Of a DNA stretch of 33,247 nucleotides, positions 23,850 through 33,247 are shown piece by piece. Origin of the DNA: Campylobacterales bacterium. Lineage in GTDB: Bacteria > Campylobacterota > Campylobacteria > Campylobacterales > Sulfurovaceae. Each line of letters starts with the position of its first letter. The first letter of the stretch is position 1. The notes below the pieces were generated by a model. It was given only the letters and a program-made list of their open reading frames with translations, ran no database searches and was not told the DNA's origin. Made by a program: the position numbers and the translations under genes. The stretch lies in the NCBI GenBank assembly GCA_016937775.1, contig JAFGVX010000029.1:1-33247 (forward strand), given 5' to 3'.

Positions 23850-25931
23850 TTGAAGTCAATACAACAAACCCAAGAGAGTAATGTAGACACAGAGGCTTTA
23901 ACAGAGCAGCTTAAAGGGCAGAGAAATTTACAAGAGGACTCTTGGCAATATTGGATGATTGTCGTTATAGCTTTTTTATGGTCTTTGTATCAGCTTTATG
24001 TTGTTATCGTGCCGACAAATAGTGTTTTTATACGCTCAACCCATCTTGCTTTTGCTTTAGCTCTCGCTTTTATGATGTATCCTATGTTTCGTTCAAGCAA
24101 AACCATGCGAACCATCCCTTGGTACAATTTTTTAATTATGCCCGCTGCCGTGTTTACTTCGCTCTATATCTATCTCTTTTATGATGCACTTAATGCCAGA
24201 AATGGCTCTTGGACTACGGCTGATGTTATTGTGGGAATTTTAGGCATTATTTTATTGTTAAAAGCCACAAGAAGAACGCTTGGATTAGCACTTCCTATTA
24301 TTGCTATAATTTTTTTGATCTATGATCATCTAGGGCAATCTATGCCCGATATCATAGCGCATAAGGGTGCAAGCATTAATAAAATAGTAGGACAGATGTT
24401 TCTTACGACAGAGGGGATATTCGGAGTGCCTTTGGGGGTGAGCGCAAGTTATGTTTTTTTGTTTGTTCTCTTCGGCGCACTTTTAGATAAAGCGGGCGCG
24501 GGGAAATATTTTATTGATCTTGCATATGCGCTTTTAGGTAAATATGACGGCGGACCCGCAAAAGCATCCGTTGCTGCTTCAGGAATGATGGGGATTATCT
24601 CAGGAAGTTCTATAGCCAATACGGTAACGACGGGAACTTTTACGATACCGCTTATGAAGAAACTCGGATTTCCCGGATATAAAGCCGCTTCAGTAGAGGT
24701 GGCAGCCTCAACAAATGGGCAACTTATGCCTCCTATTATGGGTGCGGCTGCATTCATCATAGCAGAGTTTTTAGGACTTGCTTATACTGATGTTATCATG
24801 GCTGCTGCTATTCCTGCTTTTGCGAGCTATTTTGCTCTTTTTTACATTGTCCACTTGGAGGCAAAAAAGCTTGGTATAGTAGGTGAAGATCCGGCAAAAT
24901 TTCAAAATGCATTTACGATTTTTAAAAGTGGTATGCACTACATCATACCGATATTTTTTTTGATATATACACTTATTGTGCTGAGACAATCCCCTCAATC
25001 TGCCGCATTTAATGCGATAGTATTTATAATGCTTATCATGGTCACGCAGCATCCTGTAAAAGCATGGCTGAAAAATAAAAAAGTGACACGATCTGATTTT
25101 TTAGTCGGCTTTTATACTATAGGCGAGGGGATGGTCTCGGGCGCAAAAAATATGGTGCCTATTGCTATTGCAACAGCCGTTGCCGGCATTGTTGTTGGTT
25201 CAGTTACATTGACGGGCATAGGGTTGACGCTCGCAGATGTCATCACACAACTCTCAGGCGGATATATTGTCGGTGTTTTGTTTTTAACCGCGGTCGTTTC
25301 ACTTATTTTAGGGATGGGGCTTCCTACAACGGCAAATTATATCGTTATGGCATCTTTAACCGCACCGATTATTATGGAGCTAGCAGGCGATTTAGGCTAT
25401 CTTATTCCTGCAATCGCGGCTCATATGTTTGTGCTTTATTTTGGTATCCTTGCTGATGATACGCCTCCTGTCGGTATGGCGGCGTATGCTGCTGCCGGGA
25501 TTGCTAAAAGTGATCCTATTAGAACGGGGCTTCAGGGGTTTGCATATGATATCAGAACAGCAATTTTGCCGTTTGCTTTTTTCTTTAACAATAAATTACT
25601 ACTTATAAAGAGTGTTGATGCGGCACACCTAAAAGATCCTTCAACTTGGCAATGGGTAACAAATCCTTTTGAAATAGCACTTATATTTGTAACGGCGGTT
25701 ATTGGAATGTTTGCTTTCTCTTCTGCAGTGCAAGGATGGGTTAGAAAAAAAACCACTATTGTTGAAAGAGCACTCCTTCTTATGATAGCTGTATCAATGC
25801 TAGTGCCGAATATTGTAATGCAATGGTTGCATCTAGGAAGCGAATATACAGTATATGCTTTGGGAGCCATAGTTTATCTTATGATTTATATAACTCAAGT
25901 AAGAAGTATGAAAAGTACAAATGAAAGATAG
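23850..25931 (+). CDS. TRAP transporter fused 4TM/12TM permease
   Basis: 693 aa; 'GGPAKASVAASGMMGIISGSSIANTVTTGTFTIPLMKK', 'ILGMGLPTTANYIVMA', 'LADDTPPVGMAAYAAAGIA'; TTG start abutting the TAXI stop. Confidence 0.94.
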   Translation: MKSIQQTQESNVDTEALTEQLKGQRNLQEDSWQYWMIVVIAFLWSLYQLYVVIVPTNSVFIRSTHLAFALALAFMMYPMFRSSKTMRTIPWYNFLIMPAAVFTSLYIYLFYDALNARNGSWTTADVIVGILGIILLLKATRRTLGLALPIIAIIFLIYDHLGQSMPDIIAHKGASINKIVGQMFLTTEGIFGVPLGVSASYVFLFVLFGALLDKAGAGKYFIDLAYALLGKYDGGPAKASVAASGMMGIISGSSIANTVTTGTFTIPLMKKLGFPGYKAASVEVAASTNGQLMPPIMGAAAFIIAEFLGLAYTDVIMAAAIPAFASYFALFYIVHLEAKKLGIVGEDPAKFQNAFTIFKSGMHYIIPIFFLIYTLIVLRQSPQSAAFNAIVFIMLIMVTQHPVKAWLKNKKVTRSDFLVGFYTIGEGMVSGAKNMVPIAIATAVAGIVVGSVTLTGIGLTLADVITQLSGGYIVGVLFLTAVVSLILGMGLPTTANYIVMASLTAPIIMELAGDLGYLIPAIAAHMFVLYFGILADDTPPVGMAAYAAAGIAKSDPIRTGLQGFAYDIRTAILPFAFFFNNKLLLIKSVDAAHLKDPSTWQWVTNPFEIALIFVTAVIGMFAFSSAVQGWVRKKTTIVERALLLMIAVSMLVPNIVMQWLHLGSEYTVYALGAIVYLMIYITQVRSMKSTNER

Positions 25932-26179
25932 GTGATGTAAATATGGAGAAGTTTCTGCATCATTTTTGAGTGATATTGTACTATTCTATCGAGTTTTGAC
26001 TGCCTTTTGAAGAATATAGAGTAGAATCATCAGAATTTTTGTATATTTTTTTCAAGAAATGTGATATATCGTAACTTTATCCTTTCTGAGGTAGCTAAAT
26101 TACATTGTTTTGTTGAATAATGTTTATGTTTTTAAGTATAATAAAATCCTAGTTTAAATTTAATATCAAAGAGGTGAGT

Positions 26180-27838
26180 ATGGAGAGTGTTGATACAGTT
26201 TCGACTGATGTGTTGATAATTGGGGGAGGACCTTCAGGTCTCTCGGCAGCAATACGTCTTGCTGATAAATTGAAAGAAAAAGGTGTAAGCAAAAATATAA
26301 TGCTTATTGAAAAAGGTGAGGAAATCGGCTCTCATATTCTTTCGGGAGCGGTTATTAAAACCGATGTTTTTAAAGAATTGTTAACTTCTGATGAATTTAA
26401 TGAAATGCCGTTTGATTGTGAAGTTAAGGTCGATAAAACGGTTAAATTGAGTGAAAACGGCGAGACCACTTTACCTTTTCATCCGCCTTATATGAACAAT
26501 ATCGGAAACCAAATTGCATCTTTGGGAAAAATCTGTAAATTTCTTGCTACGTGTGCAGTTAGTAGAGGAGTAGAAATATATAGCGGTTTTGCAGTGGATG
26601 AACTACTCTATGAAAACGGAAAAGTAGTTGGTGCTAAAACAAAAGATACAGGTGTGGATCATGAGGGGAAACCACAAAAGAATTTCCAAAAAGGTACATC
26701 GGTAAAAGCCGGCATTACAATACTCGCAGAAGGTACGCGCGGAAGTTTGGCTAAGCAATTGATTTCAAAATTTGATTTAGATGCTACATCTAATCCTCAA
26801 GTTTATTCTCTAGGCGTAAAAGAGAGTTGGAATGTGCCTGAAGGCAGAATTGAAGCCGGAACGGTTTATCACACCATGGGTTATCCTTTGATTGATGGTC
26901 AAGAGTTTGGGGGTGGATTTATCTATGGTATGAAAAACAATAAGGTCGGACTAGGTTTAGTTGTTGGACTTGATTATGAAGATCCTAGTTTCAATATCCA
27001 CGCTGCTATGCAAGTTTGGAAACAACATCCGAAAATTAAGGCTATCTTGGAAGGTGGTTCTGTGAGTGAAGCAGGCGCTAAAACTTTACCTGAAGGTGGT
27101 TGGAACTCTATCCCAAAACTTTATGATGACAATGTTATGATCGTTGGAGATAGTGCCGGATTTGTTGCTATGCCTGCACTTAAAGGTATCCATCTAGCGG
27201 CTACTTCGGGGATGTGTGCTGCAGATACTGCTGCACTAGCATTAGTAAAAGGCGATACATCCGCTTCTACTTTAACTCGCTATAAAGAGCTTGTTGATGC
27301 AAGTAGAATTAAAAAAGAGTTATATCCGGTAAGAAACTTTAGAGCCGTTATGCAAGACGGGATGATACTTGGTGGGCTTAAGTTTGGTGTTCAACTTCTC
27401 ACACGAGGTTTCTGTTTGCTTACACCTGATACACATAGCGATGCAAGTGAAACTAAAAAAGTAAAAGAGTTTACAGGGCGTCCTTTCAAAGAGAGATTTG
27501 CCGGGAAACTTGATTTTGATAAAAAATTAACTTTTGATAAAGTTACAACAGTTTTTCAATCACGCGCAATGCACGATGAGCATCAGCCGGTTCATATAAT
27601 CATAAATAACCCTGAACAATTCCGATCATCTAATATAGAAGTGTACGGCTTAAGCGAAGAAGCTATGTGTCCTGCTGAAGTGTATGAGTTACATATAGAT
27701 AAACAAGGCAATAAAAGCTTACGATTGCATGCCGAAAATTGTCTTCACTGTAAAACTTGTGATATAAAATCGCCAAACGGCGGCATAACATGGACGACGC
27801 CTTATGGTGAAGATGGTCCAGAATATAGAGAAATGTAG
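26180..27838 (+). CDS. Electron transfer flavoprotein-ubiquinone (quinone) oxidoreductase
   Basis: FAD motif 'VLIIGGGPSGLSAAIRLA'; 'GSHILSGAVIKTDVFKEL', 'VYSLGVKESW', C-terminal 'MCPAEVYE...NCLHCKTCDIKSPNGGITWTTPYGEDGPEY' 4Fe-4S domain; start at ATG 26180 with AGAGG SD. Confidence 0.95.
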   Translation: MESVDTVSTDVLIIGGGPSGLSAAIRLADKLKEKGVSKNIMLIEKGEEIGSHILSGAVIKTDVFKELLTSDEFNEMPFDCEVKVDKTVKLSENGETTLPFHPPYMNNIGNQIASLGKICKFLATCAVSRGVEIYSGFAVDELLYENGKVVGAKTKDTGVDHEGKPQKNFQKGTSVKAGITILAEGTRGSLAKQLISKFDLDATSNPQVYSLGVKESWNVPEGRIEAGTVYHTMGYPLIDGQEFGGGFIYGMKNNKVGLGLVVGLDYEDPSFNIHAAMQVWKQHPKIKAILEGGSVSEAGAKTLPEGGWNSIPKLYDDNVMIVGDSAGFVAMPALKGIHLAATSGMCAADTAALALVKGDTSASTLTRYKELVDASRIKKELYPVRNFRAVMQDGMILGGLKFGVQLLTRGFCLLTPDTHSDASETKKVKEFTGRPFKERFAGKLDFDKKLTFDKVTTVFQSRAMHDEHQPVHIIINNPEQFRSSNIEVYGLSEEAMCPAEVYELHIDKQGNKSLRLHAENCLHCKTCDIKSPNGGITWTTPYGEDGPEYREM

Positions 27839-27851
27839 GAGAGGGAAATAT

Positions 27852-29819
27852 ATGGCTTTAACAATAATTAGTTTAATGAAACAAGTACCGTTAGCATCAG
27901 AGATGAGAATGGGTGAAGATGGCTTAATGGATAGAACAAAGGCAAAATCTATCATAAATGTGGATTGTAGTTTTGGACTTGAGGCAGGTTTACAGCTGAA
28001 AAAGCAAAATCCGGATGCCAAATTGATCGTCTGTTCTATGGGACCGCCTTCATTTGAGGTCTCATTGAAAAAAGCGATAGCTATGGGGTATGATGAGGCG
28101 TATCTTCTCTCAGATAGAAAACTTGGAGGAAGTGATACCTTTGCGACGGGTTTAGCGATAGCTACGATGTTGCGACATTTAGGTTTTGGAAAAGGGCTTA
28201 ATGAGGATTTTGTTATCGTCGCGGGGAGACAAACGAGTGATGGTGATACAGCGCATGTTCCTTCTCAAGTTGCAGAGAATTTGAAAATTCCTCAAGGTAC
28301 ATTTATCGAAACTGCTAGTTTGGTAGACGGTAAAGTTCACGCAAAAAGAATTATCGAGGGCGGTTATCAAATGATGAGTCTTCCTGTTCCATGCGCTATG
28401 AGTTTTACGCCAACAGGAGTTGAGCCTAGAAGAAAATCTTTAGCCGGCGCGGTTAAAGCAAATAGAGCAAAAGTTACAGTATTTAGCATCGAAGATATTA
28501 ATTTGAGTGAAGAGTTTATCGGATTGGGGACTCCGGGGGAAAACGGGTCTCCGACAATCGTATCAAAAGTTGCAAATGTCGTAAGCGAGAGAGCTCCTAT
28601 AAAAATGTCATCAGGGCACAATGAGAGAGAATTGGTATCAAGTTTTTTAGATAACTTTAAAGCCGGTAAAAATACTTTAGAAGTCAAAGAGGCGAAAGCA
28701 AAAGTAGAAAAAACTAGAGATGAGAGCCTAGAAGTTATTGACTTTAGAAACGGTGCAAAAGGTATTATTACTTGGGCAGAAGTCGTAAAAGGTCAAATTT
28801 CTAGACCATCTTTAGAGCTTTTAACACCGGCAAGAGAGTTGGCGAATGATTTAGGTAATGATACAAAAGTAACAACAGTATTGATCGGTAAAAATGTCGG
28901 CGAGCTTGCAAAAGAGCTCATAGCATATGGCGCAGATGAAGTTGTCGTAGTAGATGATGAGAGACTCGAAGAGTACAGAATTTTACCGTTTTCAGAAATC
29001 TTTGCACAAGTAATCAAAGAGAGAAATCCGGAGATTGCACTCTTTGCTGCAACAACGGCAGGGCGTGAATTGGCTCCTAGAATTGGAGTTAAGACAGGGA
29101 GTGGGGTAACTGCTGATTGTACTTCACTTGAGATAGGCGAGCATAAACATAGAAACAAAGAGACAAAAGTGCAAGTAATATATGCTCCATTACTAGAGTC
29201 AAGAAGACCAACTTATGGTGAATCTAAGCTTGCTACGATTATCGGTTTTGTTTGTCCTCAAATCTCGACTGCACGTGCTGGAACATTTGCTGTGCCTCCA
29301 AAAGATGAAAGTAGAAAGGGAACTATCTCTAGCTTTACCCCAAAATTAGATGAGAGCGAATTTGTATCTGAAATTATTGAAACCGTGATCGGCGAAGCCG
29401 GCGGTCAAGCTCTATTTGATGCAGATATTATAGTTTCAGGCGGGCGCGGTACTGCAGGTGATGGTATGCAACTCGTGAAGGATTTAGCACAAGCATTGAA
29501 AGAACAAGGTCTAAAAGCAGAATGGGCAGCATCAAGGGTTATGGTTGATGAGGGTGTTTCTGAATATGCAAAACAGATAGGTCAAACGGGTAAAACCGTA
29601 CGACCCAAAGTGTATGTTGCAGTCGGTATTAGTGGTGCGGTGCAACATGTCGCCGGCATGAAAGAAGCGGAGACGATAGTTGCAATTAATCACAATGCGA
29701 AAGAGACGATTTTCAATAATGCTGATTTTGGAATAGTCGGCGAGTATGAAGATGTACTTCCTGAGCTTATAGAAAAGGTAAAAAATGGGTTTACATTTGG
29801 CATAGAAGCTAAAGCATAA
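27852..29819 (+). CDS. Fused electron transfer flavoprotein, beta then alpha subunit in one polypeptide
   Basis: N-terminal EtfB 'LTIISLMKQVPLASEMRM...VIVAGRQTSDGDTAHVPSQVAENLKIPQGTF'; C-terminal EtfA 'VSGGRGTAGDGMQLVKDLAQAL' and 'VYVAVGISGAVQHVAGMKEAETIVAIN'; start at 27852 with AGGAGAGG SD. Confidence 0.93.
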   Translation: MALTIISLMKQVPLASEMRMGEDGLMDRTKAKSIINVDCSFGLEAGLQLKKQNPDAKLIVCSMGPPSFEVSLKKAIAMGYDEAYLLSDRKLGGSDTFATGLAIATMLRHLGFGKGLNEDFVIVAGRQTSDGDTAHVPSQVAENLKIPQGTFIETASLVDGKVHAKRIIEGGYQMMSLPVPCAMSFTPTGVEPRRKSLAGAVKANRAKVTVFSIEDINLSEEFIGLGTPGENGSPTIVSKVANVVSERAPIKMSSGHNERELVSSFLDNFKAGKNTLEVKEAKAKVEKTRDESLEVIDFRNGAKGIITWAEVVKGQISRPSLELLTPARELANDLGNDTKVTTVLIGKNVGELAKELIAYGADEVVVVDDERLEEYRILPFSEIFAQVIKERNPEIALFAATTAGRELAPRIGVKTGSGVTADCTSLEIGEHKHRNKETKVQVIYAPLLESRRPTYGESKLATIIGFVCPQISTARAGTFAVPPKDESRKGTISSFTPKLDESEFVSEIIETVIGEAGGQALFDADIIVSGGRGTAGDGMQLVKDLAQALKEQGLKAEWAASRVMVDEGVSEYAKQIGQTGKTVRPKVYVAVGISGAVQHVAGMKEAETIVAINHNAKETIFNNADFGIVGEYEDVLPELIEKVKNGFTFGIEAKA

Positions 29820-29838
29820 AAAAATATAAAGGAGAAGC

Positions 29839-30783
29839 ATGGTAGGAAGAAAAGTTGGAATAGTAGGCGCTGGATTTGTTGGCGCCACAGCCGCATACAG
29901 CATGACGATATTGGGAATTTGTCACGAGGTTATCTTGTATGATGTTGTGCCTGAAATGGCGATTGGAAAAGCGATAGATATAGGACAATCGACAAACTAT
30001 TCCGCAAAAGGAACGATAGTCACGGCAGCAAAAACGCCTGCAGATATAAAAGATTGTGATATCGTTGTTATCACTGCAGGAGTTCCGCGAAGAAGCGAGA
30101 TGAAAAGAGCTGATCTTTTGATGATTAATGCGAAGATTGTAAAAGAGGTTGTGGAGAATGTCAAAATATATTCTCCAAATGCCATTATACTTTGTGTATC
30201 AAATCCTTTGGATGTTATGAACTATGTTGCGTATAAGCTTACGGGCTGGGACAGAAAGAGAATTATCGGTATGGCAGGAGCACTCGATGTTTCTAGAATG
30301 GCATACCAAATTCATAAAAAAGTAGGCTTCGGTTCGGGTCAAATGCGAGCAATGGTTGTCGGCAATCATGGACAAGATATGATCCCATGTCCTGAGATAT
30401 CTGCCGTTGGGGGCGTACCGCTCGATCAATTGTTAGGCAGAAACGATATGGATGAGATTATCGAGAAGACGAAAGAGGGTGGTGCAGAGATCGTCAAATA
30501 TCTTAGTACTTCAGCCTACTATGCTCCGGGACGAGCTATCTCGGTAATGGTTGAAGCGATACTTCATGATTCTAGAATTGTGATGCCGTCTTCTGTTGTG
30601 CTTGACGGAGAATATGGGCATAAAGATGTTTCTATCGGAGTTCCTATTGTACTTGGAGCAAGTGGTGTCGAGAAAATTATTGAGCTTAATATTCCCGAAG
30701 ATAAAAAAGTAAAATTCGATCAAGCGGTAGCTTCAGTACAAGAGTCTATCGATATATTGAGAGAAAATAACTTTTTTGACTAA
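29839..30783 (+). CDS. mdh: Malate dehydrogenase, LDH-like type
   Basis: 'KVGIVGAGFVGATAAYSM', 'ITAGVPRRSEMKRADLLMINAKIV' (Arg at the malate-specific position), 'VVGNHGQDMIP'. Confidence 0.88.
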   Translation: MVGRKVGIVGAGFVGATAAYSMTILGICHEVILYDVVPEMAIGKAIDIGQSTNYSAKGTIVTAAKTPADIKDCDIVVITAGVPRRSEMKRADLLMINAKIVKEVVENVKIYSPNAIILCVSNPLDVMNYVAYKLTGWDRKRIIGMAGALDVSRMAYQIHKKVGFGSGQMRAMVVGNHGQDMIPCPEISAVGGVPLDQLLGRNDMDEIIEKTKEGGAEIVKYLSTSAYYAPGRAISVMVEAILHDSRIVMPSSVVLDGEYGHKDVSIGVPIVLGASGVEKIIELNIPEDKKVKFDQAVASVQESIDILRENNFFD

Positions 30784-31481: not shown

Positions 31482-33032
31482 CTATATTCCTTTTGAAGAA
31501 CTGTTTTTTAATCTTCCTTGCATGCTAAGATAACTATTGAGTGCTCCTATATAGGCTTTTGCGCTTGCAAGCATAGTATCCAAACTAAGTCCGTGACCTA
31601 TCATTGCAGGCTCACTATCGTCAAATGTTACTTTGACTGTTACATTCGCTAGAGCATCTTTACCTTGTGAAACGGAAGTAACTTTATAGTCAATCAAAGT
31701 ACCTTTAAAGCCCGTGACTCTATCAATCGTTTTAAAGACAGCATCTATTGTACCTCCTCCGATACTCGCATCTGTTTTTTCTTTCTCTTTGTGCCTTATC
31801 GTCACGGCAGCACTCGGAACACCACCTGTTGAATCCATGAGTTGCATAGCAATCAATTCATATACTTTCTCTACATGAGTCATTTCACTTGTTACAAGTG
31901 CCCGTATATCGTCATCATAGATATTCTTCTTTTTGTCGGCAAGCTCTTTAAATCGCTCGAATGCTTTGTTTATCTCTTCATTATTTGCCTCAAACCCAAG
32001 TTTTGTAAGTTTATCTTTAAATGCCGCTCTTCCGGAATGTTTGCCAAGTATTAATGTGTCACTGATGTCTATGCCTATATCTTCAGGTCTGATAATCTCA
32101 TAGGTCTCTTTGTTTTTGAGCATTCCGTCTTGGTGGATGCCACTCTCATGAGCGAATGCATTTTTACCGACAATTGCTTTATTTGGTTGTGGTTCGATTC
32201 CCGTGATATTAGCTATCAATCTACTTGTCAGATATATCTCTTTAGTGTTAATATTGGTATCTAAACCGACAAAAATATCTTTTCGTGTCTTCATTGCCAT
32301 AACAATCTCTTCAAGTGCAGCATTACCGGCTCGTTCACCTAAGCCGTTAATAGTGCATTCAACTTGTCTAGCGCCATTCAAGATGCTCTCCAAGGAGTTT
32401 GCTACACCAAGTCCAAGATCATTATGATTGTGAACAGATATGATAGCTCTTCCTTTGGTGTATTCACTCATTATTCGTATCATTTCGCCTATTTCGCTCG
32501 GCATTCTAAAACCAACGGTATCGGGTAAATTGATAGTAGAAGCACCTGCTTCTATAACAGCATCAGTAATCTCTTTCAAAAAACCTATATCACTTCTGCC
32601 GGCATCTTCGCAGCTAAACTCCACATCATCTGCAAATTCTTTTGCATATGTAACGGCATTAATAGCCTTTTTGATGACCTCATCGGGAGTCATTCTAAGT
32701 TTATGTTCCATATGTATGGAACTTGTTGCGATAAAAGTATGAATCCTTTTAAATTTTGCATGTTTTATAGCTTCACCCGCAGCTTTTATATCTTTGTCTA
32801 CTGCTCTTGCAAGCGAACATACGGTGGAGCGGGCTACCTTTTGTGCTATTTGTGAAATAGCATCAAAATCTCCAGGACTTGCAGCTGCAAATCCTGCTTC
32901 TATGATATCAACGCGTAATCTTTCTAACTGAGAAGCTATACGTATCTTCTCTTCAGTGTTCATAGATGCGCCGGGGCTTTGTTCCCCGTCTCTCAATGTC
33001 GTATCAAATATCTTTATAATTTCTGTTGTCAT
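31482..33032 (-). CDS. leuA: 2-isopropylmalate synthase
   Basis: '[16 protein letters not shown]', '[15 protein letters not shown]', '[15 protein letters not shown]', '[11 protein letters not shown]', C-terminal regulatory domain. Confidence 0.96.
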
Positions 33033-33121
33033 AATAAATGCCTTTAAATAAATGCAAACAATAGTGTAATATTGTTAAATTATACCAAAAAAGGTAATAG
33101 CATGTTGTTAAAAAATGATAA

Positions 33122-33190
33122 TTAAAGAGATAGAAGCAGGAGAGATGTAGCTTTTTTGTAGAATGTTGTTTTTGTAATATAAGTTTTCAT
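33122..33190 (-). CDS. Putative leucine-rich leader peptide of leuA (22 aa: MKTYITKTTFYKKATSLLLLSL)
   Basis: ATG at 33190-33188, TAA at 33124-33122; SD AGGAG five nt upstream; Leu codons CTC CTG CTT CTA then TCT CTT; 89 nt before the leuA start. Not in the supplied ORF track (too short). Confidence 0.75.
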   Translation of the reverse strand: MKTYITKTTFYKKATSLLLLSL

Positions 33191-33200
33191 TATCTCTCCT
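33138..33200 (-). promoter_or_regulatory. Long-range inverted repeat pairing the leader SD with the leader Leu codons
   Basis: AGGAGAGAT (minus strand 33200-33192) is perfectly complementary to ATCTCTCCT (minus strand 33146-33138). Confidence 0.6.
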
Positions 33201-33213
33201 CTTTTTTTGTTGC

Positions 33214-33242
33214 ATTATACACTATTTCTTTTTTTATTGCAA
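33214..33242 (-). promoter_or_regulatory. Sigma70-type promoter for the leuA leader transcript
   Basis: Minus strand TTGCAA (33242-33237), 17-nt spacer, TATAAT (33219-33214). Confidence 0.75.
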
Positions 33243-33247
33243 GCAAT

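Follow-up and report, generated by a model that had tools for sequence, protein, structure and literature searches.

A LeuL leader upstream of leuA in a Sulfurovaceae genome and the predicted pairing of its leucine codons with the leader's own Shine-Dalgarno sequence

A gene for 2-isopropylmalate synthase that is preceded by a short reading frame ending in a run of leucine codons raises the question of whether, and through which RNA structure, leucine could govern its expression. The gene considered here lies in a window of 33,247 nucleotides, by which we mean the whole stretch of DNA that was analysed. This window is contig C62 of a metagenome-assembled genome (MAG) of 1.49 Mb in 108 contigs, which is 89% complete and belongs to the Sulfurovaceae. 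According to our analysis, leuA (31482-33032, minus strand) encodes a 2-isopropylmalate synthase of 516 amino acids, an assignment already made in the initial annotation, with a score of 760 bits against the NCBIfam equivalog model, whose cut-off is 532. A putative leuA Shine-Dalgarno (SD) sequence, AAAGG, is found at 33045-33041 (minus strand). LeuA has 90% sequence identity to the protein of an uncultured Epsilonproteobacteria MAG and 77 to 85% identity to the LeuA proteins of several Sulfurovum MAGs, which makes the host a Sulfurovum-like member of the Campylobacterota; leuB is encoded elsewhere in the MAG, on another contig. In a different part of the window (23850-30783, plus strand), upstream of a malate dehydrogenase gene, we noted genes encoding a fused TRAP transporter permease and a FixC-like FAD oxidoreductase, as well as a 671-amino-acid protein, a single chain of which matches electron-transfer flavoprotein beta and then alpha.

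The leader reading frame, leuL, occupies positions 33190-33122 of the minus strand, starts with the ATG at 33190 and encodes the 22-codon peptide MKTYITKTTFYKKATSLLLLSL*. The SD sequence AAAGAGGAGAGATA, with the core GGAGAG, lies 5' of this start codon. The frame ends in CTC CTG CTT CTA TCT CTT TAA, so that Leu accounts for five of the six final residues (control codons at 33142-33125, minus strand), and 89 nt of the minus strand separate its stop codon from the ATG of leuA at 33032. The frame, its SD sequence, the terminal Leu run and the 89-nt gap are all present as initially annotated. A frame of 10 to 45 codons that starts with ATG, is preceded by an SD sequence and has at least five Leu among its last six residues occurs once in the 33-kb window, for which 300 first-order Markov simulations give an expectation of 0.003. 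On the basis of this expectation, together with conservation among relatives, a chance reading frame was rejected. Upstream of leuL, the promoter P1 proposed in the initial annotation could be located on the minus strand (33242-33214), with TTGCAA at 33242-33237 and TATAAT at 33219-33214 separated by 17 nt and 10 of 12 positions matching the consensus. The P1 match alone carries little weight, since matches of such quality are expected by chance (two found in the window versus 1.6 expected). Its -10 element is better supported than the whole promoter match, because in 108 of the 123 relatives a TANAAT or TATACT sequence precedes leuL at a distance of no more than 60 nt. P1 lies just where the contig ends, so that no sequence further upstream is visible.

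As stated in the accessible parts of the publications, in 2013 C. jejuni and most Epsilonproteobacteria with leu genes were proposed to carry a leader peptide, named LeuL, and leader-peptide control was proposed for it (PMC3847290). The C. jejuni LeuL contains rare Leu codons, its RNA ends shortly past the stop codon (PMC3847290), and a start-codon Ribo-seq signal has been reported for it (PMC11955535). As far as those parts describe it, the epsilonproteobacterial LeuL resembles the leader of the window in being a short, SD-preceded frame upstream of leuA with several C-terminal Leu codons, mostly ones that are uncommon among the genes of the genome. Where 20 to 35 amino acids, a ribosome-binding site and a position directly upstream of leuA characterize LeuL, the window has 22 amino acids, GGAGAG and a distance of 89 nt. 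The window frame is a LeuL leader peptide and an additional member of a known group. The leader of the enterobacterial leu operon (Rfam Leu leader) likewise carries a Leu-rich leader peptide ahead of leuA; unlike that leader, the one studied here displays no strong terminator or antiterminator that we could recognise. Identity with the Rfam Leu leader was rejected, given that no match in the window reached the gathering score of this family and only a tRNA was matched.

The initial annotation had proposed that the frame and its terminal Leu run should be conserved in relatives, and this is borne out. Among 163 distinct leuA upstream regions, nearly all from Campylobacterota, 123 contain a LeuL by strict criteria (ATG start, SD sequence, 15 to 40 amino acids and at least three Leu in the last ten residues), a set in which the SD sequence and the Leu codons are not evidence by themselves, having been selected for, and whose selection leaves the swap tests described below unaffected. 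Several further leaders, outside the strict set, start with GTG or TTG, and a clear leader was not found in some of the 163 regions. Synonymous changes are enriched between related leaders in all three leader groups, which fits the translation of leuL; the N-terminal part of LeuL is weakly conserved within the leader class of the window. For Leu, the leaders mostly use CTC, CTG, CTT and CTA (250, 159, 108 and 79 codons, with 29 TTA and 14 TTG), whereas the first 20 codons of leuA mostly use TTA and TTG (105 and 37 codons, with 26 CTN). The first Leu codon is CTC in 81 and the second is CTG in 78 of the 123 leaders. CTT is not rare in the window, because the leuA gene there has 13 CTT codons in addition to three CTC, one CTA and one CTG. 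At L086, a locus from the same genus, leuL changes frame by one base within an A run, the SD sequence and CTCTCCTG being retained; either a sequencing error or a real frameshift could explain this. A leuA match is absent from two relatives estimated to be 98 to 99% complete, G001 of the same genus and G023 of the same family, and some relatives such as these may have lost the ability to make leucine.

A second LeuL class has a strongly conserved peptide, IKxxKxLPKIEIKNxLL, which is maintained across synonymous codon changes. The string PKIE is present in 32 of the 163 candidate leaders, and loci of this type include L015, L016, L017, L026, L175, L181, L187, L190 and L235. The conservation of the peptide sequence suggests that the nascent peptide of this class may itself matter, perhaps for stalling. 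The 28-amino-acid LeuL of L235, from a Campylobacter-type genome, falls within the class with LPKIEIKN or LPKIEIRN, a motif that the window peptide lacks, and the string PKIEIKN was not found in the literature searched.

The best-supported RNA structure of the leader, which was absent from the initial annotation, is a helix in which the Leu codons pair with the SD sequence of the same leader. In the window, AGGAGAGAT of the SD region (33200-33192) is the perfect complement of ATCTCTCCT, which covers Ser-Leu-Leu codons (33146-33138). The predicted helix comprises 12 bp with one bulged G and is present in both the minimum free energy (MFE) and the centroid structures. Its 5' arm, AAGAGGAGAGAT (33203-33192, minus strand), includes the leuL SD sequence and covaries with the Leu codons, and its 3' arm, ATCTCTCCT-G-CTT (33146-33134, minus strand), corresponds to Ser-Leu-Leu-Leu codons. 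Since CTC-CTN resembles an anti-SD sequence anyway, the pairing was tested in several ways. The mean energy of pairing between the SD region and the Leu tail is -11.9 kcal/mol for native leaders, versus -10.4 kcal/mol when partners are exchanged across the whole set of leaders (none of 5,000 swaps as low), -10.2 kcal/mol after permutation of each leader's own synonymous codons, and -8.4 or -5.6 kcal/mol with random synonymous codons. Swaps within genera or leader classes, the level at which this test controls relatedness and hence does so in part, gave -10.9 kcal/mol (p=0.001), and four control region pairs showed no pairing excess in the same test.

Group by group, the native pairing is supported singly in g3, g2 and g1, in the PKIE class and in the group termed "other"; taken alone, genus g8 and the Arcobacter class did not yield significant covariation between SD and Leu arms, and g4 and g9 have too few members for a single-group test. 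When the SD sequence was anchored on GGA(G) and the Leu arm on the first Leu-Leu, the position just outside the near-invariant core covaried within genera (79% paired versus 69%, p=0.0005), and covariation at helix positions further out is below significance singly. Among the many compensatory changes, those affecting whole helices include the pairs AGGAGCGTACC/GGTATGCTCCT, AGGAGGATAGA/TCTATCCTCCT, AGGAGTGTAC/GTACACTTCT and CAGCAGGAGT/ACTCCTGCTG. In an alignment of eight members of the window's genus, GGAGAG/CTCTCC is invariant, and a base pair that is A-U in six members is U-A in the other two (the window and L002). The leuL SD sequence has a predicted openness that averages 0.48 across the family (0.64 in the window) as long as the Leu codons have yet to be transcribed, falls to 0.10 (window 0.01) once the leader is complete, and is 0.39 (window 0.07) when a ribosome occupies those codons. 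In light of the swap, covariation, compensatory-change and SD-openness results, it is very likely that the helix between the SD sequence and the Leu codons has been selected, while its function is what we infer below. Judging from these sequences, the Leu control codons could double as an anti-SD element able to close the leader once they have been transcribed.

The idea of a self-pairing leader may have a precedent in E. coli trpL, for which pairing of a distal segment with the ribosome-binding site of the leader has been discussed. Within the open-licence literature, and in the parts of it that were accessible, no report was found of control codons pairing with the leader's own SD sequence. 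The actinobacterial LEU element, a leader with a run of Leu codons upstream of leuA, has Leu codons that pair with the SD sequence of leuA (PMC1262725); it shares the pairing of Leu codons with an SD sequence, but the partner is that of leuA there and that of leuL here. Pairing of the LEU-element type, between the Leu codons and the leuA SD sequence, is unsupported in our set (native -5.10 versus swapped -5.08, p=0.39).

The interval between leuL and leuA contains a further element, TTTTTTGGTATAAT (33092-33079, minus strand), which looks like a second promoter, P2, and as such would supply leader-less leuA mRNA. GnTANAAT is conserved in this interval in 59 of 76 Sulfurovaceae regions, versus 7.8 expected from shuffles, and is found in 15 of 47 regions outside this family. 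Extended -10-like elements between the two genes were also seen in the Arcobacter-type loci L020, L022, L037, L204 and L214 to L218, and in Sulfurovaceae they often lie just 3' of a small hairpin with co-varying arms. Many Sulfurovaceae intervals also contain a dyad, TCTAAT...ATTAGA, around ACC...GGT, which was set aside as a DNA operator because the spacing of its half-sites, as assessed by eye, varies and because the window lacks its outer arm.

Our best inference from these data is that leuA is subject to leucine-dependent attenuation. We consider it rather probable that LeuL, a leucine-sensing leader that would act in cis on leuA, exerts leucine-responsive, ribosome-mediated control of this gene and that the self-closing helix is a part of such control. 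P1 would transcribe leuL and, as predicted SD accessibility suggests, a ribosome would load onto the emerging transcript while the Leu codons have yet to be made. With ample leucyl-tRNA, this ribosome would complete leuL and depart, upon which the Ser-Leu-Leu codons would pair with the leader's SD sequence, a pairing to which covariation points, and would bar further initiation; RNA polymerase would then tend to stop between leuL and leuA, by analogy with the leader RNAs of C. jejuni. When leucyl-tRNA is short, the ribosome would stall on the CTC/CTG codons and block the helix, the SD sequence could stay open to more ribosomes, and transcription would continue into leuA. The P2-like site downstream of leuL may sustain some basal leuA expression that does not depend on the leader. 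One prediction argues against opening in the window: when a ribosome is stalled on the Leu codons, the openness of the SD sequence there is only 0.07, the family mean being 0.39. The stricter proposal, that the control codons are the anti-SD sequence of their own leader and that ribosomes enter only on nascent RNA or while the Leu codons are occupied by a ribosome, is put forward tentatively, as a serious possibility.

The enterobacterial leu and trp operons are governed by classical attenuation at an intrinsic terminator. Applied to the present locus, a stalled ribosome would let an antiterminator form and thereby block a terminator upstream of leuA, the helix between SD and Leu codons being secondary, a version that we deem doubtful. 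It is consistent with the enrichment of hairpins followed by a U tract, which under lax criteria occur in 21 of 76 Sulfurovaceae intervals (9.6 +/- 3.2 expected) and mostly 21 to 30 nt before leuA, and with the folding of the interval just upstream of leuA, which is better than that of shuffles family-wide (mean z of -1.00). However, a standard terminator scan called none in the window, where the candidate, AACAATA-ttacac-TATTGTT (33076-33057, minus strand), is a weak terminator-like hairpin by lax criteria, AU-rich, with an interrupted U tract behind it and a folding z of -0.58. Furthermore, when 455 leader region pairs were compared between native leaders and within-group swaps, the pairing of SD and Leu codons came out on top (t=-5.6) and no downstream region emerged as an alternative antiterminator partner, an absence which is weak evidence since the t values are uncalibrated and values up to +5.3 also occur. 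Leader-less transcripts from the downstream promoter would contain the hairpin as well. Of the classic leucine attenuator described in the initial annotation, the leader-peptide layout holds, being conserved and showing the synonymous excess, whereas the attenuator layout is not supported by the standard scan, which gave no terminator beside the weak hairpin found by lax criteria, or by the antiterminator search, which gave no pairing.

In E. coli tnaC, attenuation is Rho dependent and a stalled ribosome acts as a shield. A comparable arrangement, in which the pyrimidine-rich, unstructured interval between leuL and leuA would be exposed after translation and shielded by a ribosome stalled on the Leu codons, appears to us about as unlikely as the intrinsic version. 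The result of the standard scan, which leaves the window without a strong intrinsic terminator, agrees with it, as do the C/U-rich and G-poor end of the leader, the detection of rho above the cut-off in 36 of 40 relatives and, in the accessible part of the report, the ends of C. jejuni leader RNAs just past the stop codon (PMC3847290). It is opposed by the terminator-like hairpins that many relatives carry and by the failure to find a full rho gene in the MAG of the window, which, at 89% completeness and with relatives having one, is probably a matter of MAG incompleteness. The likelihoods that we assign to the intrinsic and Rho-dependent versions overlap with that of ribosome-mediated control through LeuL, as both are versions of the same general idea.

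The P2-like site could make the leader unimportant. In that case, the downstream promoter would drive leuA and leuL would be a relic or bystander, a separate short RNA with little effect; this is in line with the frequency of GnTANAAT in Sulfurovaceae intervals and with TTTTTTGGTATAAT in the window, but is improbable considering that the leader, its Leu codons and the SD helix are kept under selection beside leuA across the order. That LeuL is instead a small protein functioning in trans, rather than a cis leader, is very improbable, for although the synonymous excess in all leader groups and the LPKIEIKN motif kept through synonymous change in the second class would suit it, the Leu codons at the end of the frame and the pairing they engage in are in keeping with cis control, and conservation of the N-terminal part is low in the leader class of the window (the invariable position beside leuA follows from LeuL having been sought in leuA upstream regions).

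Regarding leucine-responsive control through LeuL, the open-licence literature searched, as far as accessible, presents LeuL as a predicted attenuator, and an account of how it works was not found there. The leader itself is known, and what looks new is that its Leu codons are also built to pair with leuL's own ribosome-binding site. For LeuL, the accessible parts of PMC3847290 and PMC11955535 mention neither this helix nor the promoter-like site between leuL and leuA, both seen here in the window and its relatives. Since the helix spans the Leu codons, their replacement, which the initial annotation had suggested as an experiment, would alter RNA pairing and leucine sensing together. The covarying helix between ribosome-binding site and Leu codons offers a defined target for mutation and predicts leucine-dependent re-initiation on the leader. 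If the proposal is true, leuL would be a self-closing leader in which leucine starvation raises both ribosome stalling and ribosome loading, and this self-closing logic would be common to many LeuL leaders of Campylobacterota.
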